DNA from: a virus | Virus record (IMG/VR): IMGVR_UViG_3300036831_000191 | Span: 1-21,828 of that record | DNA: 21,828 nucleotides | Direction: 5' to 3' (one strand) | In this document: in pieces, positions 3,314 to 21,828 of the stretch | How positions within the stretch are numbered: the stretch's first letter is position 1 | How the letters are laid out: every line of letters starts with the position of its first letter | Notes under the pieces: generated by a model | Database searches by the model: none | What the model was told of the DNA's origin: nothing | Seen by the model: only the letters and a program-made list of their open reading frames with translations | Translations under genes and position numbers: made by a program

Positions 3314-3592
3314 ATGGCCGAAACAGAACTTACCCGCCTGACGATCGTATGGTCCAAAGACACCGATATTGCCTTGCGCACCCACCTTGGCGCGCACGGC
3401 TTTAAAAAAGGCGCCCTCTCAAGGTTCGTCGAGGACGCTGTCAAATGGCGCTTGTTCGATCGGACGGTCAACGAGGTCCGCGACGCCTTCGCCGACATGT
3501 CTCCCGACGAGCTCGACAGCCTGATCGACGAAGCGGTAGCCAGCGTACGAAAAGAAAAACAGCGTCAACGCAAACGCCGCACCAGAAGATAA
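3314..3592 (+). CDS. Ribbon-helix-helix antitoxin
   Basis: The protein has 92 residues, starting at ATG after GAGGAG with a 3-base gap. The N-terminus reads as a short beta strand (ELTRLTIVWS, residues 5-14), a helix (KDTDIALRTHLGA), a turn (HGFKKG) and a second helix (ALSRFVEDAVKWRLF). This is the MetJ/Arc/CopG ribbon-helix-helix pattern: the strands pair in a dimer and insert into the major groove. The C-terminal part is acidic and then strongly basic (KEKQRQRKRRTRR), and it would cover the toxin. The antitoxin stop and the toxin start are separated by only three bases, so the two are co-translated. The operator immediately upstream fits autoregulation. It is on the opposite strand to all surrounding phage genes. 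Confidence 0.8.
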   Translation: MAETELTRLTIVWSKDTDIALRTHLGAHGFKKGALSRFVEDAVKWRLFDRTVNEVRDAFADMSPDELDSLIDEAVASVRKEKQRQRKRRTRR

Positions 3593-3595
3593 GGC

Positions 3596-4003
3596 ATGCG
3601 GCTGGTGATCGACACCAACGTCCTCCTCAGCGGCCTGATGTCTCCCGTTTCATCCTCCGCGCAGCTACTCGCGCTATGGCGCAATCGCGCCTTCGACCTC
3701 ATCACTTCGACCGAGCAGATCGACGAAATCGCGCGTGTCACACGCTACCCAAAGATTCGCGTCCGGATTGCGAAGGCGCTCGCAGGACGTCTCGTCAACC
3801 GGCTTCGTGACGTGGCCATCGTCGTTAAGAACTTACCGAAGGTCGATCTCTCTCCAGATCCCGAAGACAATTACCTGTTAGCGCTGGCCCAGGCCGGCCA
3901 CGCTCACTTTCTCGTAACCGGTGATAAACTATTGCTCAGTCTGAAGCACCACAAATCCACCCGCATAATTGCTCCAGCAGCCCTGCTCGAACTACTAAGG
4001 TGA
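3596..4003 (+). CDS. PIN-domain toxin (VapC-like ribonuclease, COG1569-type)
   Basis: The protein has 135 residues, the usual length for a PIN toxin. It begins MRLVIDTNVLLSGL, carrying the first catalytic acid D6 in the diagnostic VIDTNVL motif. The second acidic site is in STEQIDEIARV (E44). The third lies in SPDPEDNYLLALA (D91), and a fourth in HFLVTGDKLLL (D110). Together these form the metal-binding acidic pocket of PIN ribonucleases, which in VapC toxins cut tRNA or rRNA. The C-terminus IIAPAALLELL resembles the usual closing strand and helix of this subgroup. The gene directly follows its antitoxin. All expected catalytic residues are present, so it is probably functional. The specific RNA target cannot be predicted. 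Confidence 0.88.
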   Translation: MRLVIDTNVLLSGLMSPVSSSAQLLALWRNRAFDLITSTEQIDEIARVTRYPKIRVRIAKALAGRLVNRLRDVAIVVKNLPKVDLSPDPEDNYLLALAQAGHAHFLVTGDKLLLSLKHHKSTRIIAPAALLELLR

Positions 4004-10142: not shown

Positions 10143-13100
10143 CTAATCCGGCCACGGTCCGCTCAGCCCACATGCGGACGCACAAACATACTGTGTCTGC
10201 GTTTGGGCCGCATCAATCGCCGAAACGTTTGCTCCGGCATCAGTCCCATCCGCTGGCGCTTCCGCTCCGCCGCTCTTGAACACGCTGCCTGCGATCAGCG
10301 CGTAGCCGTGGTAATCTCCCAGCGCCAACGGCATACTGGACGCGCTCATCGCCCCTGTGAAGCCAACGCACCCCGACGTGGGCGTCGCGCCCGTGCAATA
10401 CGACGTTGCCGGAAAGTACATCGCCGGACTCGCCACTGGGAACGCAGGATTGTTGCCGTAGGCCGTGTACAGCGATCCATTGCGTCCAGGAAAAACATTC
10501 CTGTCCGCCGTCATGCTGCTGTAGTCGTAGTTGAACAGTTCTGTCGGCGTACCTTCCCCCGCATCGCTATTCCATCCCGAAGTCCCCGTACCTACGCCCA
10601 CCACGAAAATATTGTTCTGCAGCGCCGTGTTCCTTGCATAATTGGGGCCTGAATTCTGGCTTTCCTGGTTCGAGCTATAAAGGATGGTTTTGGAATCGCT
10701 GACCACCGTGTTGTGCGCCAGGTAAAGATTCTGCGGATTGCCATTGATGTTGGTTAACGTGCAATAGCCGGATGTGTCGCTCGTTCCCGGCGAAACCCCG
10801 CTCCACAAATAACTCACGGTGATGCCGGCCGCGCTGTAGCTCCCCGTCCAGGACGCCGAGCCGCCCGTTACGATCGGTCCAATGCCCGAAGGGTAAGTTC
10901 CCCAACTATGACTGCTTACCGGCACGTTGAAAGCCGTAACCGACTGACAGTTGGTGATCGTGACCGCATCACCGGCGCTGATATCCATCACTTGTTCGCC
11001 TGGGCCGGGATTGCTGGCGCTGGTAATCAGCGTGGCAGTCAACGTCCCACTCCCCGTGCCGAGAGAGACTGCTGGAGCCGACGTATAGCCCGATCCCTGG
11101 TTGGTAATCGCGGCCGCGCTCAACGCCCCGCCGGAGCACGTATAAGTTCCCGCTGCCTGCAGTCCGCCCGCAATATTGGGCGCCCCAATCACCAGATTTC
11201 CCGCCACGCATCCCGTCCCTCCGGCAGTCACCGAGAAACTCGATAGCTGTCCTGGGCAGGTTCCTCCCGTGGTTCCCGTCGCCCCGCCGTTGACCGCGCA
11301 GATGCCAATAAATTGCGCGTGCGAAGCGTCGGTTTGCGTTACAGTTCCCTGCCATTGAAACCGCGCCGCCGAGGCTTCTATGTTTGACGCCCCAACTCCC
11401 ACACATCCCGGATTCGACGCAGAGATGTTATAGAAGAGATTGTTGGACCACAGCCCGCGCTTGAACGGATACGCAACTCCGCCCCCGTCCCCATCATTCG
11501 GTGTCGAGCCGTCTACTTCCCAGCCCTCGCATGTGTTGCGCGCAATGTTGTTGACGTAAGTGATGTCGCTCATCGCCAACTGATAATTCAGCAGCCAGTT
11601 CTGCACGTTCCAATCGCCGATTACGCCTGCCTGCCCCCCGGAGTTATCCGAGTTCTCAAAAATGTTCCCGGCATAGAGAACGCGTTCTCCATTTTTTAAC
11701 TCGGCAACATTCTTACGCTCGATACTGGTGTTTGATGGCCAGTGAGCATTCCCTGCTCCAATCGTCATCTGGCCGAGCCACGCGTAAGGAAAGGTAAAAC
11801 GGTTGCGCCGTATTTCCACATCCTGAAACGGCATCAACCCAAAGATCGAATAGGGTGTATTGGATTCCGCTCCGCCGGTGAACAGCCCAATCGAATCTCC
11901 CTCAACCCAGTTGTGATCGAACTTATATGGCCCTTGCCCCTGCACGTTGATGGCATGGCCTTCGCCTCCAGGCCGCAGCACTTGGCTGACTTGCGAATCC
12001 ACCACTGAGCAATAAGAGCAGTCAAGATTAATTCCAGCCGAGACCGAGTTCGCACCCGCCGCCAGCGTCGTCCAATCCCCGTGTACCCACATCTTGCGAA
12101 GGTGAATATGGGAAGGAAATTGAGGCAGGCTCGTCTCGCTCAACGACTGCGCCATGTTCACGATGTTATTGTTGCCCGTGTTTCCCGCGCTCATCCTCGC
12201 TTCGCCATCTTCAATCAGCCAATGGTCTGGTCCAATAGTCGTGCCGGAGCACTTCGGCGGCTGAGATCCCGACGAGGTTCCGGTCGGATCGCAAAAGCTG
12301 ATCCCTGAGGGATTCGTCCCAGAACTCTCTACCGTCCACATGTACTGCACATCGTTATATGCACTGGTATTGGTCTCAGCGCCGTTTGCCAGAGTAAACG
12401 CGCCGGCTGGAATCGCGGTCTGCGCCGTTCCCAGTTGGTAGTACATGGCATCTCCCGCGCAGTCCGGATTATCGAATCCAATATCGATCGAGGTCGCCAG
12501 GTTGTCTTGTATTCCGTGGGAGCACACCGTGGTTCCATTAGGTAAACTCGAATCCTGGGTCGATCGCAGCACTAGAAAGTTGGCAGAAGCAACCGTGTTC
12601 GATTGCGGAATCACCAGTCCCAGCGCGTTCGACGTGGTGTACAAACCAGGCGGAATGTCAAGAGCGATTCCAGCTCCAGCGGCCGTTCTGCAAGCCTCCG
12701 CATCGTTTACCGCCAGTTGAAGTCCCGCAAAGGTCGGCGTGCCAACCGTCCAGTAAGGGAGATTAAACGTGCAACTCGCGGGCGTAACGCCTACCCACGC
12801 CTGCGTGCCCAGATTGAGCTCGTAAGTGTAAAGCGCATTGCCTTCATTGTTATTCACCCACAGTTGCGGCAGGCTGGGGGATCCGGGGCACAGATAAAAT
12901 GGCTCTCCGCAGTTTACCGAACCCAACCCGATAGAGAAGTGCGATCCCGCCTCGTCGGTGCCGTACACCGCATAGCCCACATATGCGTGTGCCCCAATCT
13001 CCCACCCGCTTCCGTAACTGTTCTGGTTTATTCCGTTCAGATCGTACTCATACGCAGTTCCTAAATTCTGTCCCGCGTCCACAACCGGAGAACTCCTCGT

Positions 13101-15221
13101 CGGACGGAAATCCAATGCCATGCTCGTGGCTGGCAGCTTGTAATAAGAATTCCCGTCCGAGCCGCTTTCCTGCATTCCCCCCAGCAGCCAGTTCGCCAAA
13201 CCCGTATTTGTTTGGATTGTCGCGCCGCCCGCGTTGAAATCCGCTATGAGATTCGTAATCTCCGTCGAACTCAGTTCATTCAGGTGCCAGAAAATTCCCC
13301 AAGGCACTCCCCACACCTGCTCCTTCCACACCAGCGCCTGAATTTTCTGATCTAAAACCGTCGGCTGCAGTGCCTGCCACGAGGGATTCACTCCAAAACT
13401 AGTAATGTTCTGCACGTCGAAACCGTCTGCGTAGGTGTCCTTTACTCCTAAATCTTCTTTCAGAGCTCCGCGTGCCCCGGTATACGGCACCCCGGCCGTG
13501 ATCCCCTGCATCGTGGTCGTTTCGTATCCTCCCGGATATACATACACCGGCGTCGCTGGCAGCCCCGTCAAATTAGTCGTCATCCATTGCCGCGATAACG
13601 TAATCTCGTCCGTTGTCAGCCGGGTCACATCTAACTGCATATGGTAGGCCGTGCTCTTTACATCCTGACCGCTAACATCGGCCAAATCCTGTGCCAGCAA
13701 GGCCGATTCCGTATATGCGGAACACCCTGTTCCATAAGGCCCTTGGCAGGTCGGAATCTCCGTAGCGGTGAATTTTCCCGTTGCCAATAATGCCAGTCGC
13801 AACGCTTTAATCGTCCCTTCAGCCTGCCCCTGGGCAAGGTTGTAACTCACACTATCGCTCGCCCCGGTCACCGTGATCGTCAGCGTCTTGCCGCTTATGC
13901 TCAACACCGCCGCCGTTCCGCTTCCCGTGTACTGAATTTCTAGGGCATCTGTATTGGTGTAATACGTATGCGACATCGAATGCGACGTCACATCTCGTCC
14001 CCCATTTACCCATCCCTGAAATTCCGACACCAGCGTCTGCGCAAGCGGGTACCCCACCGTGATTGCCGCGCCCACCGGAACTCCCGCCGCGTCGGCAATT
14101 GGCAACACCGTGCTCGCGTAATACGTGTCCGCACCCGGCGTCATTCCCGCATCATCCAAAGTCAACGTCACTTGCGCCGGATACCTCTGCCATTCCTGGA
14201 CTGCTGGCGCTGTATCCGCCGCAACATTCCCCCCGCCCGCGATTGGCCCGCCCCCGCTTGTCCACTCCACATCCGTCGAGCCCGCCACGGCAAGGCTCGA
14301 AGCATAAAAATGACAGTACGAGTACGTCACGGCCCCAGTATTATCTACCAACGCCCCGTCCCGATTCGCGTACCCCTTGTCGTTCACCATCGCGATCGCC
14401 GTCGCCGCCCCGTCAAATCGGAACCCGTCATAGTTCAGATGAGCCTCCGCGTTATAAATCTTGATGTCGCCCGGCCCCGGAGCGGTTTCATTCACGTAAA
14501 ACCCCAGGGGCTGCGTTCCCTCAGGAATCATCGAATCTGCTTCCATATTCGCGAATACCAGATGATCGCTCGCACCCTGCACATACACGCCATAATCATC
14601 GAACCAGTTCACCAGAAAATGCTGGAACGTCAGCCATGACCGTCCATTAATATCGATGACCGGCACATTGCTTAACGCCATCGGGACGATCGGCTCGTTG
14701 TAGTACGTCGCCGGATTCCCCGCTGAATAAACGTAAATGAATCCGTTTGCCAGATAAAAATCCCATTGCGCCGTTAGGTTCGACGACACAGCCGCAACCT
14801 TCTGCCCCCAGATGGATCCGAATAAACAAAAATTGATTGTCGAAAACGTTGCCGGTACGGGCGCCTTCCATGCGTTCCCCGTAACCAATACCCACGTCGA
14901 GGACGGCACTGCGTAATATCCGGTGAGGTTCGGCGCCGCCCCGGTGCCGTACGCATCAAAGACAATGGGATTCCCCGAACTTCCCGAAGAGGCCGGGGTC
15001 AAACCTTCATTCCAAACATCGCCGCGCTTAAACAGAATCGAATCTCCCGGTTCAAACGTCTGCCCGTTCACATGCGCAATCGTCTGCCAGGCGTTCCCAG
15101 CCGACGTCCCACTGTTCAAATCGTTCCCGCCGCTCGAGCTCACATAGTAAGTCGCCGCCCATACGTTCGCGCTGGTCAGCAACAGGAGGGCCGAAACAAC
15201 CCACGATCCCTTGGTCCTCAT
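10143..15221 (-). CDS. Giant secreted beta-helix protein with an internal polysaccharide deacetylase (NodB) domain
   Basis: The protein has about 1692 residues. A Sec signal peptide (MRTKGSWVVSALLLLTSANVWA) sets the preferred start at ATG 15221; a GTG at 15287 would add 22 charged residues. The mature N-terminus (TYYVSSSGGNDLNSGT, AWQTIAHVNG, GDSILFKRGDVW) is the classic beginning of a right-handed parallel beta-helix that binds or cuts polysaccharide. Around residues 345-580 a NodB-type deacetylase appears: VTLTLDDAG with two metal/catalytic acids, HSMSH (the HSxxH metal motif), and VYVYPGGYET. After it the first helix seems to close with RSSPVVDAGQNLGTAYEYDLNG and WEIGAHAYVG. A second, longer beta-helix region follows, with Ser/Gly/Asn-rich repeats and a GSGYTSAPAVSLG element. 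It probably binds or modifies envelope or capsule polysaccharide; whether it is part of the virion or a released enzyme is open. Confidence 0.75.
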   Translation of the reverse strand: MRTKGSWVVSALLLLTSANVWAATYYVSSSGGNDLNSGTSAGNAWQTIAHVNGQTFEPGDSILFKRGDVWNEGLTPASSGSSGNPIVFDAYGTGAAPNLTGYYAVPSSTWVLVTGNAWKAPVPATFSTINFCLFGSIWGQKVAAVSSNLTAQWDFYLANGFIYVYSAGNPATYYNEPIVPMALSNVPVIDINGRSWLTFQHFLVNWFDDYGVYVQGASDHLVFANMEADSMIPEGTQPLGFYVNETAPGPGDIKIYNAEAHLNYDGFRFDGAATAIAMVNDKGYANRDGALVDNTGAVTYSYCHFYASSLAVAGSTDVEWTSGGGPIAGGGNVAADTAPAVQEWQRYPAQVTLTLDDAGMTPGADTYYASTVLPIADAAGVPVGAAITVGYPLAQTLVSEFQGWVNGGRDVTSHSMSHTYYTNTDALEIQYTGSGTAAVLSISGKTLTITVTGASDSVSYNLAQGQAEGTIKALRLALLATGKFTATEIPTCQGPYGTGCSAYTESALLAQDLADVSGQDVKSTAYHMQLDVTRLTTDEITLSRQWMTTNLTGLPATPVYVYPGGYETTTMQGITAGVPYTGARGALKEDLGVKDTYADGFDVQNITSFGVNPSWQALQPTVLDQKIQALVWKEQVWGVPWGIFWHLNELSSTEITNLIADFNAGGATIQTNTGLANWLLGGMQESGSDGNSYYKLPATSMALDFRPTRSSPVVDAGQNLGTAYEYDLNGINQNSYGSGWEIGAHAYVGYAVYGTDEAGSHFSIGLGSVNCGEPFYLCPGSPSLPQLWVNNNEGNALYTYELNLGTQAWVGVTPASCTFNLPYWTVGTPTFAGLQLAVNDAEACRTAAGAGIALDIPPGLYTTSNALGLVIPQSNTVASANFLVLRSTQDSSLPNGTTVCSHGIQDNLATSIDIGFDNPDCAGDAMYYQLGTAQTAIPAGAFTLANGAETNTSAYNDVQYMWTVESSGTNPSGISFCDPTGTSSGSQPPKCSGTTIGPDHWLIEDGEARMSAGNTGNNNIVNMAQSLSETSLPQFPSHIHLRKMWVHGDWTTLAAGANSVSAGINLDCSYCSVVDSQVSQVLRPGGEGHAINVQGQGPYKFDHNWVEGDSIGLFTGGAESNTPYSIFGLMPFQDVEIRRNRFTFPYAWLGQMTIGAGNAHWPSNTSIERKNVAELKNGERVLYAGNIFENSDNSGGQAGVIGDWNVQNWLLNYQLAMSDITYVNNIARNTCEGWEVDGSTPNDGDGGGVAYPFKRGLWSNNLFYNISASNPGCVGVGASNIEASAARFQWQGTVTQTDASHAQFIGICAVNGGATGTTGGTCPGQLSSFSVTAGGTGCVAGNLVIGAPNIAGGLQAAGTYTCSGGALSAAAITNQGSGYTSAPAVSLGTGSGTLTATLITSASNPGPGEQVMDISAGDAVTITNCQSVTAFNVPVSSHSWGTYPSGIGPIVTGGSASWTGSYSAAGITVSYLWSGVSPGTSDTSGYCTLTNINGNPQNLYLAHNTVVSDSKTILYSSNQESQNSGPNYARNTALQNNIFVVGVGTGTSGWNSDAGEGTPTELFNYDYSSMTADRNVFPGRNGSLYTAYGNNPAFPVASPAMYFPATSYCTGATPTSGCVGFTGAMSASSMPLALGDYHGYALIAGSVFKSGGAEAPADGTDAGANVSAIDAAQTQTQYVCASACGLSGPWPD

Positions 15222-15306
15222 GCGTAGTCGTTCCGCCCCTCGCCTCTTCGTACTCTCACCGGCTTTGATGGAAACTTCCACGGCCACTCTCCACTTCCTC
15301 GCTTCA

Positions 15307-15330
15307 AAAGACGAAAGCCATCAGCTTTCG
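15307..15330 (-). terminator. Possible weak intrinsic terminator
   Basis: CGAAAGC (15312-15318) and GCTTTCG (15324-15330) form a 7-bp stem with a 5-base loop, followed on the minus strand by TCTTTTG. It lies 54 bases after the stop of the small acidic gene and upstream of the giant beta-helix gene. The stem is AT-rich and the T-run is interrupted, so function is uncertain. Confidence 0.4.
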
Positions 15331-15384
15331 CCAATGGCTCTTGGTAATTGTTTTGCCAAGGTCCGAGACCCGGCTCCTGAAGAC

Positions 15385-15633
15385 CTATCCCTCTCGTTCT
15401 GCTTCATCCTCAACGCTGTCGGCGCTGTCACCCATGTCATAATTCTGCAACCCCGCGTTCGGCGAGGTTGCTGGCCCCGGCTGGGTCACCCGGCTTTCCG
15501 AAAATGCCGGCGTAGTCTGCCCACCATCAGCATCCGTCCCGCCCCAGTTCGTAACTGCCGGATTTCGATCGCTTTGCTCGAACGACTGCATGCCAGACGG
15601 TTCTTCCAGCTCAGGTTTGATCGCATTGCTCAT
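15385..15633 (-). CDS. Small acidic protein of unknown function
   Basis: The protein has 82 residues, starting at ATG 15633 after AGGGGGAAAG at a workable distance. It is highly polar and probably disordered, rich in Glu, Asp, Ser, Pro and Gly (IKPELEEPSG, GGTDADGGQTTP, DSADSVEDEAEREG). It has no signal peptide, membrane segment or recognisable domain. Position between two giant secreted genes on the same strand, with a reasonable ribosome binding site, argues that it is real. A helper role for its neighbours is only a guess. Confidence 0.5.
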   Translation of the reverse strand: MSNAIKPELEEPSGMQSFEQSDRNPAVTNWGGTDADGGQTTPAFSESRVTQPGPATSPNAGLQNYDMGDSADSVEDEAEREG

Positions 15634-15691
15634 AAATCTTTCCCCCTATCGCGAATGTTTCCTGTTCAAACAAATCAATGCCCTCCATTCA

Positions 15692-18600
15692 CTAATGAAT
15701 CTCCCACGCCACCGTGGTCGATTCAGTCGGATTGTCCGCCGGAATAGTGATGCCATTGTTCAGTGTTCCACCAGCCGTCACGCTCACCGAACTCCCGCTG
15801 CCCCCGCCCAGAAAGTTGAATCCCGCCGAACTTCCTCCGTAAATCTGTGCGCACGAGCTCGTACAGCTGCTCGTGATGGCCAGATAATACTTGCCAGGCT
15901 GCAGCGTTGCACTCGCTAGCCAACTGAGAGTCCTCCATCCCGTGCTCGGCGCAAATGATGCCCCCGACGCGCTCCCAATGTGAGCCACAATATTCCCAGC
16001 GCTGTTCAGTACGCCCATGTCATAAGTGTTGCTAGAATTGTCTGCCGTTGAAACGTAATACGTGACCTGTGTCGTACTCAGCGGAAACGTCAGCACTACG
16101 CCCCACACTTCCGCCTTGTTCGCTGTGCTTGAGAACGTCACCGGATTCCCAGTCGTGCCCGTCGTAAGCCAGGGAATCGAATACGATGCGCTGCTGCTCA
16201 CGTTCGACCCCGGCATGTCGAAAAACATCTGCACCGTCGTGCCCCCTGCACTCGCCTGCAGTACCCGGCCCAGCACCTGCACCCCGGCGGGCTGCGTCGC
16301 GCCCGCATCATGGCATAGCGGATAGAATCCGCTACTGGCCGTGGTCGACTGCACAACGAAATCTCCAACCACTGTTGCCGTCCCGTCGAAATTGCAAAAA
16401 GCCGATCCCATGCGAGCCAGAGTCACTACTCCGGAAGTGCCCGCATTGGCAATGACTACTCCGATGATTCCACTGCTCGATGCGCTTGATGGCTTCGCCG
16501 CGCAACCTGACGACGTCAGCACCGCCAATCCATTACTACTCGTGCCATTCGTCGTGTCATTACATAGCTCATAACTCTGGTTGGCGAATTTTCCCAACTC
16601 GAATCCGCTCCCGCTGGTCGCGTTTCCTGCCGCATACAACGTCCCCGGACGCAATCCGCTCCCGCTTCCAGAGCTATTGAATGATCCAACGTTATACGCT
16701 TGGTCTGTCCAGGGCTTAAAGTTACTGCTCGCATCCACCACCCATTTCAGCCCGCTATTAATCCACAATCCCAGCCCCGGCGCTGCCCCGGATGCCGAAT
16801 TCTCGCTGCGAACCACTGCATAGTTGTCCGTCGCGTCATAGCCCAGCGATGTCCGCTGCCACGTCGAGCTGTTTGTATAACTTGAATACACATGGAGGTT
16901 CTGCGCCGTTGTGCCGTTATATTCCCCCACATCATTCGCATCTTCCTGGAAAAGATTCGAGAAGTAGGAGCTCGTCGCTGTCGTCGCCACCTTCTGCGGT
17001 GCCCCGGAGTTCGCCGAAATGTAAAAGTTCCCGTCGTTTGAAATTCCCAGCGCAGAGGTTCCTGCTCCCGCCGCCGCCATCGATGTCCCTGGAATCGGCG
17101 AACTCACCATCCATGGGCCCGCCACCAGCAATTGCCCGTTCACCGTCACGTTCCCGCTGAACGTTCCGGCCGCAGCGCTTACCCCATTACTCCCTGCGTA
17201 ATTCAGGGTCGAACCGCTGTCCGTCAGCCCACCGTCTCCGCTTACCGCCGTTCCGTTTGCCGCGTACATTGCAACCTGTGCCGCGTTTCCGTTGTTAACC
17301 GTTCCGGAGCCCCCACCACTCCCACATCCGGTGCAGGTTCCCGTCACCGTCAAATTGCTGTTGATGGTCACCGGTACGTTGAATGTTTTCTTCGTCGCGG
17401 TCAGTCGCTCAAGGAAACTCACATTGTCACCCGCATTTCCTATGTAAGCGGAAATCGCTGCCGGCGCCCCAAATGCCAGTTGTACGGCATTCACCGCCGC
17501 CCCGGGCGCATCGTTTCCAATGTAACTATCGCTTGCGTCGGTTGCCGCCCGCTTACCGCTGCTCGCTTGGGTCTTTGACGGATTGGAATCAACCAGCGTG
17601 ATTATTTCTCCGCTCGGAACCGTTTGAGCGTTCTTCCGTTCCACAATTACTCGCCCTTTCAATCCATTGGTCGATGCATTATTGTCGTCAAGCAGCGTGG
17701 AGACCCCTCCGAGTGCCTGCACGTAAGCGTCTTTGTAGCCAGCTTGCGTATTCTGCAGAGTTGTAACTGTTGGAATCGCCCGTCCGCACAGGGCCTCAAC
17801 GCCCTGCAGAAGCGAGTTGGTGTCGTAGGTGAAATTCCCACAACCCGCGCTCGTCCCCGTCACGATTACCGGCCCTGGCCAGAACATTGCATCCGGCGTA
17901 TACTCCGTAGGATCGGTAATCGTGACGGCCGCCGTGGCGATGCTCACGTTGTCCGTAAAAGAACATTCCAGACTCGAACATTGAGTCACACCCGTCGCCA
18001 CCGACCCGCATGCCCCCGTGGTTCCGCCCGTGCAACTCGCCGTCGTGGGCGCATTGCTCGGGTCCGTCGTTCGCAGGATCGTATAACTTCTCAGCGTATT
18101 GGTTGGTGCCACCCGCGGAAAGAAGCCACTTACAGTTGCACCCGATGGAGCCGCAGAGCCGAAGTACAGGGGCGCACTAGCCCCTAGCACAGAATCAATC
18201 GCAACCAAGTAATAGTAGTAAGTCTGTGATCCTCCCGCAGCAAACTGCGGAACCACTCCTTGCGGTCCCTCTCCACCCGTCCACCTCGTAGATCCTCCAA
18301 AGCTGTAAACCCCCATCGAATTTCCGCACCCAGAGGAAGATGTGCACGAAGGTGTTTCTGGATTCTGGCATCCATTGCTTTGCTCAATGTAGATGTCGTT
18401 CAAGATCGTGTTCGAGAACCCGCCACGCCGGTTGCCCGTGGATAACCCATACTGGGCAAATCCTTGTGTAATTCCACCGTCCCAGATAACTGTGTTCCCA
18501 TTGAATGCCGTCAATCCGTTGCCCGTGCAACTCTCGCTCAGATCGACATTCTTCAGCCATGCTACGGTCGCGTTAGCCGACGGTCCCGGGAAGTAAAGCA

Positions 18601-20779
18601 TGTTCCCGCAATATGGCGAGGTTGTTGTACACGCATCCCCTGCCCCCAGGCTCAGAGCCCCCGGTTTGAAGTCCGTCAACGAAAATGCTTGATCGTTTAG
18701 CACAGTAATCCCGTTGTTGAAGTGCCCCGCGATCTGCATCGCCATTCCACCCGGCTTGCTCATATCGAAATCGCTTATGATGTCGTGGTTGCTGTTAAGT
18801 AATACCGGAGCGTTCAGGATGTTGATGTATCCGGGTGTTGTCGTCACCGGAATTCCACCCCCGCATCCAGAATCGGGGTAACTAACCGAAGTCGAAGTCA
18901 CCCCGCTCACTCGCGTCAATCCCGCCGAGACCGAACCGCCCCAGAAATGCGAGACGTCCGTACGTTGCACATCCACCAAATCTCCCACTTGGATTCCGTG
19001 CGCAACTGTGGTGGTGATCGTCGCTATCCCGCTTGTGCACTGTACCGATGCAATCGGCCAGCCGTTGATATCCAACTCCGAGGCCATCCTTACCCCGCTT
19101 AGCGTTAACGGCCCAAATCCGATTCCAGCGCCGTCCGCTTCAACGCAGGCATCCCGCGTATAGCAATCCAGCACCGTTCCCTTCGCATCCCACTTCACGT
19201 TGTTGGTCGGCATGTGGATCGTGCCGTAAACCTTGTACATCAGAGAAACATTTCCATTTGCCGCGCTCGTTCCTGCTGGGCCGGTAACAAGATACGCATT
19301 CCCTGTCCCGTTTGTACCCGTTACGTTCGCCGTCGAAGCTAGGGATTCGTAGATTCCGCTCGACGCCGAACCGAGCGTGTATCCAGTCGCATGTGAATTC
19401 TGGGGCGTGAACTTAATGGTTCCGCTATTTCCGCCCGGGACGCACGATCCCCCGCCCTGCAGTCGTACCGCCTCAGGTGTTCCCACCCCCGATATATAAA
19501 TGACGCCGATGGTGTCTCGACCATCGATTCCAGCCGGACAGGGAGCCAACGTTACGGTAGCTTGCACTCCACCGGTCAGCGCCCCGCCCGGGTTTTGCGC
19601 CCAGTTATTCGCCGTCGCCGCATATTGAATATTCAGGAGATTGTTGACGCTGAAACCCGTCCCTGGCACTTGCACAATATTCTGATTCGCTGAGGGGCTC
19701 ACAGACACAACCCCCGTCCCGTTCGTCAGCGTCGTCGGCGCATATTGCCCCGTCCCTGACAAATATGTCAGTACTTGTCCGTTTACCGGCGTGCCGGTCG
19801 CCACAGGAACGCTCTGAATCGCCGTCGCATTCGCGCTCGATCCGCACGGCCCCCACGTCCCATTTCCCAAGAGGCAATTCAACCCCGTAGCTGTACCGCT
19901 TCCCAATTCGCTTATCGGAACCAGCCCGCTCACCAAATCCGCCTTCGCTGCGGCGCTCAAGTCCACATATTGTTTAGGCGCGGCCTGAAGGGGAGCCGTC
20001 GGACTTCCGCTTAAGGTCAGCGCGCCTGTCATCGCCCCGCCCGCCGTCGGCAGATAGTTCCCCGCTCCTACCCCGGCAATCGCCGTGTCCACATATGTTT
20101 TGTTGGCCACGTCTCCCGTGCTCACTGGCGCCGGTACGCTCGGCGGCGACGCGAACGACTTAGTTCCACTGATCGTCTCCGCTCCCGCTAGGTGAACCAC
20201 TGCGTTGTCGTTCGCCTTGGCCGCCAGCGCCGTGTTCACGTACTGCACAGACGCCCCTGGAGCTGCCGTTCCCGATCCCGGCGTCGTTCGCACCTGCGCC
20301 AGGGTTGCCGGTGAACTCGTCGGCACCACCCAATATTCGGTTTTCACTTCGCCTGGGCCCAGTTGATAGACCACCGTGTAATACACGCCCGGCGGCGTTG
20401 CTCCCGCGTTAGGCGCCAAGGCCACATTCAAAGCCCCGTTCGCTCCCAGCGTGACATCCAGCGAGCCCTCGGACATCGCTGCCCCGCTCGCCGTTACAAA
20501 CGCCGGCCATGTAATTATCAGGACTCCCTGAGCCGTACTCCCATCCGCTTGATAAACCGTGTCGATCACGCTTGTCAGAGTCGGTCCGCTCTGCGGTGCC
20601 GGTGATGCGGCGCGCGGCATTGCTCTTGCCGCGGTTGGCTTCGCCGTCGCGGAACTTGGGGGCTTTTCCCCACTTCGCGCAGACCCTTCTTCTCGCGCGG
20701 AGACTTGGATGCTCATGCCCACTATCAACGTAAGCGCCAAATAAAAAAGCCGCCCCGCCGGGCGGCATGCCTGAAACAT
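15692..20779 (-). CDS. Giant secreted phage-fibre-like protein
   Basis: The protein has 1695 residues. The start is supported by AGGAGG four bases before ATG. It opens with a Sec signal peptide (hydrophobic LFYLALTLIVGM, probable cleavage after VSA at residue 28), then a Pro/Ala/Ser-rich linker (30-66). Residues 67-160 form a beta-sandwich-like domain. Residues 176-290 carry phage tail-fibre type repeats: ETISGTKSF, NKTYVDTAIAGV, MTGALTLSGSPTAPLQAAPKQYVD. The middle (about 480-1000) is Gly/Ser/Asn-rich beta-helix-like sequence with several Cys pairs. Further fibre-like modules follow (VTVTGTCTGCGSGGG, LTDSGSTLNYAG), and the C-terminal ~200 residues are a beta-sandwich (WRTLSWLASATLQPGKYYLAITSSC), possibly carbohydrate-binding. 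Fibre repeats point to receptor or surface binding, while the signal peptide points to export by the host. A terminator-like hairpin lies within its first codons. Confidence 0.75.
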   Translation of the reverse strand: MFQACRPAGRLFYLALTLIVGMSIQVSAREEGSARSGEKPPSSATAKPTAARAMPRAASPAPQSGPTLTSVIDTVYQADGSTAQGVLIITWPAFVTASGAAMSEGSLDVTLGANGALNVALAPNAGATPPGVYYTVVYQLGPGEVKTEYWVVPTSSPATLAQVRTTPGSGTAAPGASVQYVNTALAAKANDNAVVHLAGAETISGTKSFASPPSVPAPVSTGDVANKTYVDTAIAGVGAGNYLPTAGGAMTGALTLSGSPTAPLQAAPKQYVDLSAAAKADLVSGLVPISELGSGTATGLNCLLGNGTWGPCGSSANATAIQSVPVATGTPVNGQVLTYLSGTGQYAPTTLTNGTGVVSVSPSANQNIVQVPGTGFSVNNLLNIQYAATANNWAQNPGGALTGGVQATVTLAPCPAGIDGRDTIGVIYISGVGTPEAVRLQGGGSCVPGGNSGTIKFTPQNSHATGYTLGSASSGIYESLASTANVTGTNGTGNAYLVTGPAGTSAANGNVSLMYKVYGTIHMPTNNVKWDAKGTVLDCYTRDACVEADGAGIGFGPLTLSGVRMASELDINGWPIASVQCTSGIATITTTVAHGIQVGDLVDVQRTDVSHFWGGSVSAGLTRVSGVTSTSVSYPDSGCGGGIPVTTTPGYINILNAPVLLNSNHDIISDFDMSKPGGMAMQIAGHFNNGITVLNDQAFSLTDFKPGALSLGAGDACTTTSPYCGNMLYFPGPSANATVAWLKNVDLSESCTGNGLTAFNGNTVIWDGGITQGFAQYGLSTGNRRGGFSNTILNDIYIEQSNGCQNPETPSCTSSSGCGNSMGVYSFGGSTRWTGGEGPQGVVPQFAAGGSQTYYYYLVAIDSVLGASAPLYFGSAAPSGATVSGFFPRVAPTNTLRSYTILRTTDPSNAPTTASCTGGTTGACGSVATGVTQCSSLECSFTDNVSIATAAVTITDPTEYTPDAMFWPGPVIVTGTSAGCGNFTYDTNSLLQGVEALCGRAIPTVTTLQNTQAGYKDAYVQALGGVSTLLDDNNASTNGLKGRVIVERKNAQTVPSGEIITLVDSNPSKTQASSGKRAATDASDSYIGNDAPGAAVNAVQLAFGAPAAISAYIGNAGDNVSFLERLTATKKTFNVPVTINSNLTVTGTCTGCGSGGGSGTVNNGNAAQVAMYAANGTAVSGDGGLTDSGSTLNYAGSNGVSAAAGTFSGNVTVNGQLLVAGPWMVSSPIPGTSMAAAGAGTSALGISNDGNFYISANSGAPQKVATTATSSYFSNLFQEDANDVGEYNGTTAQNLHVYSSYTNSSTWQRTSLGYDATDNYAVVRSENSASGAAPGLGLWINSGLKWVVDASSNFKPWTDQAYNVGSFNSSGSGSGLRPGTLYAAGNATSGSGFELGKFANQSYELCNDTTNGTSSNGLAVLTSSGCAAKPSSASSSGIIGVVIANAGTSGVVTLARMGSAFCNFDGTATVVGDFVVQSTTASSGFYPLCHDAGATQPAGVQVLGRVLQASAGGTTVQMFFDMPGSNVSSSASYSIPWLTTGTTGNPVTFSSTANKAEVWGVVLTFPLSTTQVTYYVSTADNSSNTYDMGVLNSAGNIVAHIGSASGASFAPSTGWRTLSWLASATLQPGKYYLAITSSCTSSCAQIYGGSSAGFNFLGGGSGSSVSVTAGGTLNNGITIPADNPTESTTVAWEIH
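20743..20766 (-). terminator. Intrinsic-terminator-like hairpin inside the signal-peptide codons
   Basis: On the minus strand GCCGCCC pairs perfectly with GGGCGGC around GGCG, followed directly by six T and AT. The stem covers codons 5-11 of the giant fibre gene, and the T-run encodes Leu-Phe-Tyr of the signal peptide. By structure this is a strong rho-independent terminator. By position it would abort the downstream gene unless translation prevents folding. Confidence 0.6.
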
Positions 20780-20834
20780 ACTTCCTCCTAAAACTCGTCT
20801 AACTTACTCACCGCGTCTCGCCTTTAGTCCGTTG

Positions 20835-21452
20835 TCACTCCCTACTGTTCAAGAACTCTTCCACGCTCCTTACATAAACTTCTGCGAAATCAGCAGCCGG
20901 CCGGCGCGACTCGATCAATTCCATCGCATCCTCCACTGTCCACCCCATCACTCCGAGCAGCGCCAGCGTCATCATTGGGGCCCGATGCACCCCGGCCGCG
21001 CAATGGACAAATAACTTTGTCTCGCTCTCCTGCAGTGCCGCCAATCCGAACTCTACCCCCCGCGTAAATACCTGAGCCGGCTTCGGCTCAAAGTCATCAT
21101 CCACTGGATTCCAGCACACCGCAATTCCGTGTCTTCCCGCTAGCGCCGTGTCGTCGAACTCGATCTGCATGTCGAGAATGTGCGTAATCCCCACGCGTGA
21201 TACCGCCGCCATGTTTTCCGCGTTCCAGATTCCGCCTCCCACCGCGATCCGATCGGTCACCCATGTGATGTCGATCCCCACCTTGCGTCGTCTGACCTTT
21301 CTGTCCGGCCCAGTGTTAATCGAAATCGCATTATCCAACCCATTTTTTGCGATTCTCTCCAGCGCCTTTCTCACACTCTCGCGCGATTCCGCTCGCGGCG
21401 AGATAGACAGCGCTGGCGGCCGGCTCCTCTCCGTACTGAAGCCCCGCTTCAT
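20835..21452 (-). CDS. Dual-specificity / protein-tyrosine phosphatase-like protein
   Basis: The protein has 205 residues. The start chosen is the ATG at 21452, whose ATGA overlaps the stop of the preceding gene; an ATG 14 codons upstream is possible but lies inside that gene. The signature loop HCAAGVHRAP (150-159) carries the nucleophile Cys151 and phosphate-binding Arg157 of the HCxxGxxR motif. A general-acid Asp is likely among WNPVDDDFEP (115-123). The fold opens with DITWVTDRIAVGG and GITHILDMQ, as in the DSPc family, and ends with an alpha-helical EDAMELIESRRPAADFAEVYVRSVEEFL. The first ~55 residues are a basic extension. It would hydrolyse phosphate from protein Tyr/Ser/Thr or from another phosphorylated molecule; the substrate is unknown. 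No signal peptide is present, so it is cytoplasmic. Confidence 0.85.
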   Translation of the reverse strand: MKRGFSTERSRPPALSISPRAESRESVRKALERIAKNGLDNAISINTGPDRKVRRRKVGIDITWVTDRIAVGGGIWNAENMAAVSRVGITHILDMQIEFDDTALAGRHGIAVCWNPVDDDFEPKPAQVFTRGVEFGLAALQESETKLFVHCAAGVHRAPMMTLALLGVMGWTVEDAMELIESRRPAADFAEVYVRSVEEFLNSRE

Positions 21453-21828
21453 TCTACGGCATCCCCCCCAACCCCCATGACTGACGATCCCCATACCAAC
21501 GGAGCCGGTTGCGGGGTTTCCAAAGCGCGACCCGCCGTCCTCACCTGTCCACTCGATCGCAGATCAACATCTTCTTCGCACGCAGCCGCAACGCCGCCAT
21601 TCGCCGCTTCCACTCCTAGGGTTTTCGAGTTCTCAGCATCCACAATCGGATCAATCGGCACCCCCAGCCGCTCCAGTAGCTTGTAAACTACAGAATCTTT
21701 CCCCGACCGTGCCTTTTCCGGTGCCGGATACACGCCCGCTACTTCAAACAGATACTTCGCCTGAGCTAACTGTCCCGATTTAGCGGCTTCTATCAGTCCG
21801 TTCGCAATGGCCCCCGCCGACTTCAGCA
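21449..21828 (-). CDS. Hypothetical protein, 3' part (gene enters from the right edge)
   Basis: The frame is open from the window edge to TGA at 21449, about 126 codons; the true start lies outside. The visible part begins with a helical segment (KSAGAIANGLIEAAKSGQLAQAKYLFEVAGVYP) followed by VVYKLLERLGVPIDPIV and a polar, probably disordered tail. Its alanine-rich helical repeat loosely recalls the end of small terminase or DNA-binding adaptor proteins, but I cannot assign it. The stop overlaps the phosphatase start (ATGA), so the two are translationally coupled and probably work in the same process. Confidence 0.6.
   Translation of the reverse strand, partial: LKSAGAIANGLIEAAKSGQLAQAKYLFEVAGVYPAPEKARSGKDSVVYKLLERLGVPIDPIVDAENSKTLGVEAANGGVAAACEEDVDLRSSGQVRTAGRALETPQPAPLVWGSSVMGVGGDAVE

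Follow-up and report, generated by a model that had tools for sequence, protein, structure and literature searches.

Gene content of the window and the start of fib1

The analyzed stretch of DNA (the window) comprises 21,828 bases of an IMG/VR virus record, and its nearest terminase relatives lie in Acidobacteriota genomes, for most in Acidobacteriaceae. The minus strand carries most of the larger convincing ORFs, which in the order of transcription are a truncated small ORF, a dual-specificity phosphatase-like gene (DSP), fib1 (1695 aa), fib2 (1714 aa), a lipoprotein-like ORF, a conserved ORF, the large terminase, a HipA-like kinase, a DUF3037 protein and the portal. The truncated ORF (21449..21826, minus strand) is terminase-small-subunit-like by position only and had no match in Pfam or PHROGs; relatives of it were found upstream of DSP in 47 of 102 fib1 loci, where the upstream DNA is often short. 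DSP (20835..21494, minus strand; Pfam DSPc, E 1e-12) lies directly upstream of fib1 (15692..20779, minus strand), with 55 nt between the DSP stop and the fib1 ATG. The fib1 ORF begins with a signal-peptide-like N-terminus that has homologues in many Acidobacteriota loci, and encodes a putative giant fibre or secreted protein. The original prediction had spoken of a giant fibre gene, which is plausible, the one family match being a sub-threshold Pfam hit to BppL_N.

Several other features of the gene set were observed. Both fib1 (20779-15692) and fib2 (15287-10143), which are located near the terminase, have signal-peptide-like starts, which is odd for virion fibres, and the two products may be secreted proteins instead of virion parts; fib2 has a weak beta-helix match and, by eye, a stretch resembling polysaccharide deacetylase. 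The HipA-like kinase and the DUF3037 protein follow the large terminase at 6469-4761, and the DUF3037 gene is separated from the portal by two small plus-strand ORFs (3314-4003) that resemble, by eye, a PIN-domain toxin-antitoxin pair. Further minus-strand terminator-like hairpins between late genes (10053-10028, 530-508 and 15341-15314) precede the lipoprotein-like ORF, the ORF at the left end of the window and fib2, respectively; the late region may be split into several transcription units.

Direct reading of the minus strand at the fib1 start revealed a Shine-Dalgarno (SD) sequence AGGAGG (20784..20789), of a GGAGG type kept in many close relatives, followed by the start codon ATG (20779-20777), a left arm GCCGCCC (20760..20766), a loop GGCG (20756..20759) that varies among relatives, a right arm GGGCGGC (20749..20755) and a T-run TTTTTT (20743..20748) that continues with ATTT; both arms are also supported by covariation. 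The perfect 7-bp GC stem, the 4-base loop and the six T thus occupy 20766-20743 and fib1 codons 5-13, and they write part of the signal-peptide-like codons 1-28 (20696..20779, minus strand). Stem, T-run and upstream AGGAGG (20789-20784) are as originally described, but ATG and stem are 10 bases apart (13 nt counted from the A of ATG) and not 11. Among the terminator-like sites in the scanned half of the window, the fib1-start hairpin has the most G-C pairs (7). However, the number of such sites was not raised (6 found, against 7.8 +/- 3.2 in shuffles), and the fold of 66 nt at the fib1 start was not unusual (z -0.34; an equally good fold in 69 of 200 shuffles). Rfam yielded no match above the gathering score in the window. 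Significance from the window alone was rejected; by itself the window is unremarkable, and the significance of the hairpin rests on relatives.

Retrieval of related loci

A TerL-based retrieval yielded fib1 homologues whose signal-peptide codons contain the same hairpin with changed pairs. The DSP-based retrieval yielded matches in 46 of 399 genomes of the class (E<=1e-25) and in 140 of 398 genomes of the family (E<=1e-60), plus further regions; five of the 140 places in the family set, located at contig edges, were left out (G452, G528, G669, G449, G481). From the resulting 179 loci with DSP, the 156 with distinct DSP 3' ends were used as the set, and these consist of 102 loci with a fib1-like gene downstream, 25 with a HipA-like kinase and 29 others. 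Searches of viral contigs for fib1 relatives returned one short local match only, in an unrelated-looking contig, and phage records gave only short matches of 31-49%. DSP was absent from viral contigs in one search, and another search gave one close relative, in the same contig as L035. Titles and abstract openings in the searched literature contained no recognized earlier description of the element.

Conservation of the hairpin between DSP and fib1

Using a criterion of a CCGC/CCGT-type stem with at least 5 G-C pairs and at least 5 T in 8, we detected the hairpin and T-run on the coding strand in 87 of the 102 distinct DSP-to-fib1 loci, compared with 1.5 of 102 expected in dinucleotide shuffles, 4 of 102 on the opposite strand and 0 of 25 loci with DSP in the HipA context. 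After clustering at 80% DSP identity, 58 of 67 clusters contained the hairpin in at least one member. The positive relatives had a median dG of -14.5 kcal/mol and 5-7 T in 8, none of the 87 loci falling below 5 T and 50 of them having 7 T; the loop varied from 3 to 8 nt while the stems were kept. The 15 loci that failed the criterion include degenerate hairpins (L292, L294, L295, L313), a stem without T-run (L252, L269), assembly gaps (L121, L276) and one locus with a different, strong non-coding terminator in the gap after DSP (L212); closer reading of the DSP-to-fib1 loci L122, L184, L210, L218, L262 and L293 revealed nothing comparable to the hairpin.

Hairpins of this kind were also present in 7 of the 29 loci with other contexts (L226, L268, L272, L280, L304, L318 and L327, with L280 counted under a looser pair limit), and L254, with another gene downstream, has a strong terminator between DSP and that gene instead. 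In at least four of the seven (L268, L280, L304, L327), the same SD-ATG-hairpin-signal-peptide start precedes a different downstream protein, as if this start were an exchangeable 5' module. In three loci (L114, L219, L227), DSP and the hairpin are separated by another terminator, indicating that the hairpin is not simply the 3' end of DSP.

Position relative to the start codon and the signal-peptide code

The distance from ATG to stem was exactly 13 nt in 62 of the 87 loci, despite an identity of just 0.42 in the 10-nt spacer, whereas the distance from the DSP stop to the stem ranged from 22 to 455 nt. This contrast ties the hairpin to the start of fib1 and not to the end of DSP, although the fixed spacing could also be explained by common descent or by constraints on the signal peptide. 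An in-frame ATG lies within 60 nt before the hairpin in 79 of 87 loci.

Read in the fib1 frame, stem and T-run encode (Arg/Cys/Ser)-Arg-Pro-x-Gly-Arg-Leu-Phe-Tyr. Of 78 testable loci, 73 begin with a positively charged n-region and then a hydrophobic core, and in 67 the core is followed by an A-x-A-like motif, as called by a simple hydropathy rule and not by SignalP. The hairpin codons supply 2.6 Lys/Arg per locus, against 0.41 from the codons before them, so that in most loci the stem would serve as the n-region and the T-run as the first hydrophobic residues. Four exceptions to the rule (L290, L316, L324, L338) have their hydrophobic segment further downstream. These four appear transitional: the ATG still lies 13 nt before the hairpin, and some contain a second SD and in-frame ATG ahead of the hydrophobic segment.

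Selection beyond protein coding

Synonymous shuffles that used the genes' own codon usage, applied to 78 of the 79 loci (one was dropped for N or a stop in the segment), revealed that a terminator as good as observed is expected in 1.07 of 78 loci, and in 16.7 of 78 under a looser criterion. For covariation, 94 hairpins were cut out, of which 72 fit the register with a 4-nt loop and at least 6 pairs; 69 of these were distinct, four of them from the class of other loci. In this 69-row alignment 98.3% of cells were paired, as opposed to only 37-57% in slid registers, and double changes occurred at 4 of 7 pairs (19 double-change cells); 0 of 500 shuffles were as high in cells or covariation score, counts that are not probabilities because the rows are related. 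The amino acids track the pairing, P going with G and S with E.

In five loci (L107, L113, L266, L306, L335), the 60 nt ahead of the hairpin contain no in-frame ATG; an SD and ATG lie behind it instead, and in L266 and L306 the hairpin frame is also closed by stops. Across these apparently untranslated copies, identity was 1.00 in the stem and 1.00 in the T-run, compared with 0.52 in the loop, 0.39 upstream and 0.48 downstream. Synonymous conservation in homologues had been proposed as a check in the original prediction, and by this measure the structure is kept far beyond codon expectation. The case that it had named against itself, in which homologues keep the protein and lose stem and T-run, is mostly reversed, since 87 of 102 loci keep both while residues, loop length and translation change. 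These sequence comparisons support selection on the element as terminator-like, with no coding coincidence.

Distribution with respect to DSP

The hairpin was found in 0 of 39 fib1 homologues without DSP upstream. In the TerL tree, DSP-bearing (28 rows) and DSP-less (39 rows) elements form sister clades separated by one change. Because of this single split, the association between DSP and hairpin amounts to one event and gives no independent evidence for a DSP-related role; what counts is the retention of the hairpin inside the DSP clade. We rejected DSP with its own terminator as a fixed cassette, given the lack of the hairpin in all 25 HipA-context loci and the variable distance of 22-455 nt.

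Over ~6-7 kb upstream of four HipA-context DSP loci (L206, L216, L229, L231), no phage-family gene besides DSP was found, and the DSP-HipA arrangement looks chromosomal. All 27 DSP-bearing elements and 35 of 39 DSP-less relatives also have a HipA-like gene no more than 3 kb behind TerL; the phosphatase/kinase set of DSP and HipA-like proteins is common to phage and chromosome.

Terminator-like matches in host genomes and search for regulators

A search of seven host genomes for the pattern GCCGCC-N(3-7)-GGCGGCTTTT revealed 15 occurrences, compared with 2 for the reversed control. Three of the 15 are the fib1-start element itself, and nine of the 12 others, several of them possibly orthologous sites, begin 21-40 nt past the end of an ORF (>=90 aa). 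The position just behind an ORF end is the ordinary place of a terminator. The fib1 element itself combines the traits of intrinsic terminators, namely a GC-rich stem with an immediate U-tract on the transcribed strand and conserved pairing.

No minus-strand promoter-like site was found in 12000-21828 and no match to the sigma70 consensus upstream of DSP, nor was an antiterminator gene or a late promoter found. The window does not include an early region. The ORFs upstream of DSP in one relative gave no useful match in Pfam or PHROGs beyond a weak one to sigma region 4. An ORF located upstream of a small-terminase-like ORF (L367:2074-2664, minus strand) has a weak match to sigma-70 region 4 (E 0.012, below the curated cut-off); it is the sole candidate late regulator, in one relative.

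Discussion

Instead of a coincidence, the element appears to be a real control point or a boundary. We consider it somewhat probable that it is a selected intrinsic (Rho-independent) terminator at the boundary of DSP and fib1, which would stop transcription by default and be passed by readthrough or antitermination. A polymerase arriving from DSP would halt at the hairpin, and fib1 and the genes behind it would stay low; fib1 would be expressed upon readthrough, for which late phage antitermination is a likelier cause than chance. The late genes would thereby be kept silent while DSP is expressed, and the hairpin would double as signal-peptide code. From sequence comparison we infer termination in vivo, regulated readthrough and the silencing of late genes during DSP expression.

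Part of this arrangement might be accounted for without regulation. The hairpin could be a partial terminator that sets only the ratio of upstream to downstream transcript, its overlap with fib1 being compaction; the use of the same hairpin by host genes and the other minus-strand terminator-like sites between late genes (10053-10028, 530-508), as in ordinary multi-unit operons, are consistent with such a role, but it leaves unexplained both the fixed distance of the ATG ahead of the hairpin and the absence of the hairpin from the DSP-less sister clade, and we regard it as rather unlikely. That the conserved Arg-Arg-Pro-x-Gly-Arg-Leu-Phe motif of the signal peptide folds by chance appears extremely improbable: the motif is recognizable in many relatives and the window sequence on its own lacks a significant fold, yet codon shuffles, covariation, untranslated copies and the opposite-strand and shuffle controls all argue against simple coding coincidence, which was rejected. 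Stem-loop-stimulated transcriptional slippage is known to involve a hairpin with a homopolymer run behind it; at the fib1 element, with its six T in the window, polymerase slipping on the T-run could shift the fib1 frame. However, the T-runs are interrupted in many relatives (e.g., TTTTCTACTT in L104 and TTTCTTATTG in L107), which termination tolerates and slippage should not; slippage was rejected and seems very improbable.

The original prediction read the hairpin as a built-in check by translation, in which a prompt 30S subunit or ribosome covers the left arm and transcription continues, while slow initiation leads to termination. The spacing of 13 nt would place the left arm at ~+14 to +20, where the leading edge of a ribosome at initiation lies. 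The recurrence of this spacing in 62 of 87 loci despite the diverged spacer is the best argument for such a gate, and the in-frame ATG within 60 nt upstream in 79 of 87 points the same way; on the other side, the hairpin is identical in the five loci apparently without translation. According to PMC4824070, translation initiation takes 1-2 s, and in E. coli a terminator 30 bp past the AUG loses only ~10% efficiency from translation, but the spacing in that construct is larger and does not settle the case of 13 nt. Since 13 nt demands only the initiating subunit, the E. coli experiment is not decisive. Overall, the ribosome gate seems unlikely: a selected terminator-like element stands from the original reading, whereas translation as the main mechanism is disfavored by the untranslated copies and the published E. 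coli results, notwithstanding the 62 loci at 13 nt. The other suggestion of the original prediction, a phage antitermination target, may hold. A related possibility, tentative and on balance doubtful, is a dual-use code, in which a terminator was exapted as n-/h-region and kept 13 nt downstream of the start codon, and in which polymerase entry into the 5-kb gene depends on the initiating ribosome or on a late phage factor.

The preferred reading, a default terminator ahead of fib1, can be compared with known systems. The fib1 hairpin resembles intrinsic terminators in its GC stem, short loop and immediate U-tract, and in the occurrence of the same hairpin 21-40 nt behind host ORFs; it differs in falling within the opening codons of the gene that follows, where it encodes part of the signal peptide and lies behind the start codon. 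Lambda tR' is a terminator ahead of the late genes, in an untranslated leader beside the late promoter, and is passed through Q antitermination. The fib1 element would likewise be a terminator before phage late genes, passable only by modified polymerase, but it is coding, and promoter and antiterminator were not found here. Phage morons are accessory genes with their own promoter and their own terminator. DSP would similarly be an accessory gene followed by a terminator that shields the late genes from its transcription; unlike in morons, an own promoter of DSP was not detected, chromosomal-type DSP has no terminator (0 of 25), and the hairpin is set by the fib1 ATG and not by the DSP stop. 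The pyrBI-type translation-coupled attenuators named in PMC4824070 also have a terminator soon after a start codon; in contrast, the fib1 loci mostly contain no separate leader peptide, the hairpin is kept untranslated in five loci, and an alternative fold was not identified.

In the 87 distinct loci, selection holds a terminator-like element within the opening codons or immediately ahead of them, and for the majority one stretch of DNA would be both a probable transcription signal and a protein-targeting code. Predicted intragenic terminators are usually dismissed as noise or thought to be suppressed by translation. With these loci, nature provides a test of what gates start-codon-proximal terminators, ribosomes or antitermination. 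The titles and abstract openings in the searched literature contained nothing on regulation in this phage group, and the element marks a likely control point of its late genes. If the dual-use code is true, a start-codon-proximal transcription gate would have been kept through the whole Acidobacteria phage-like clade.
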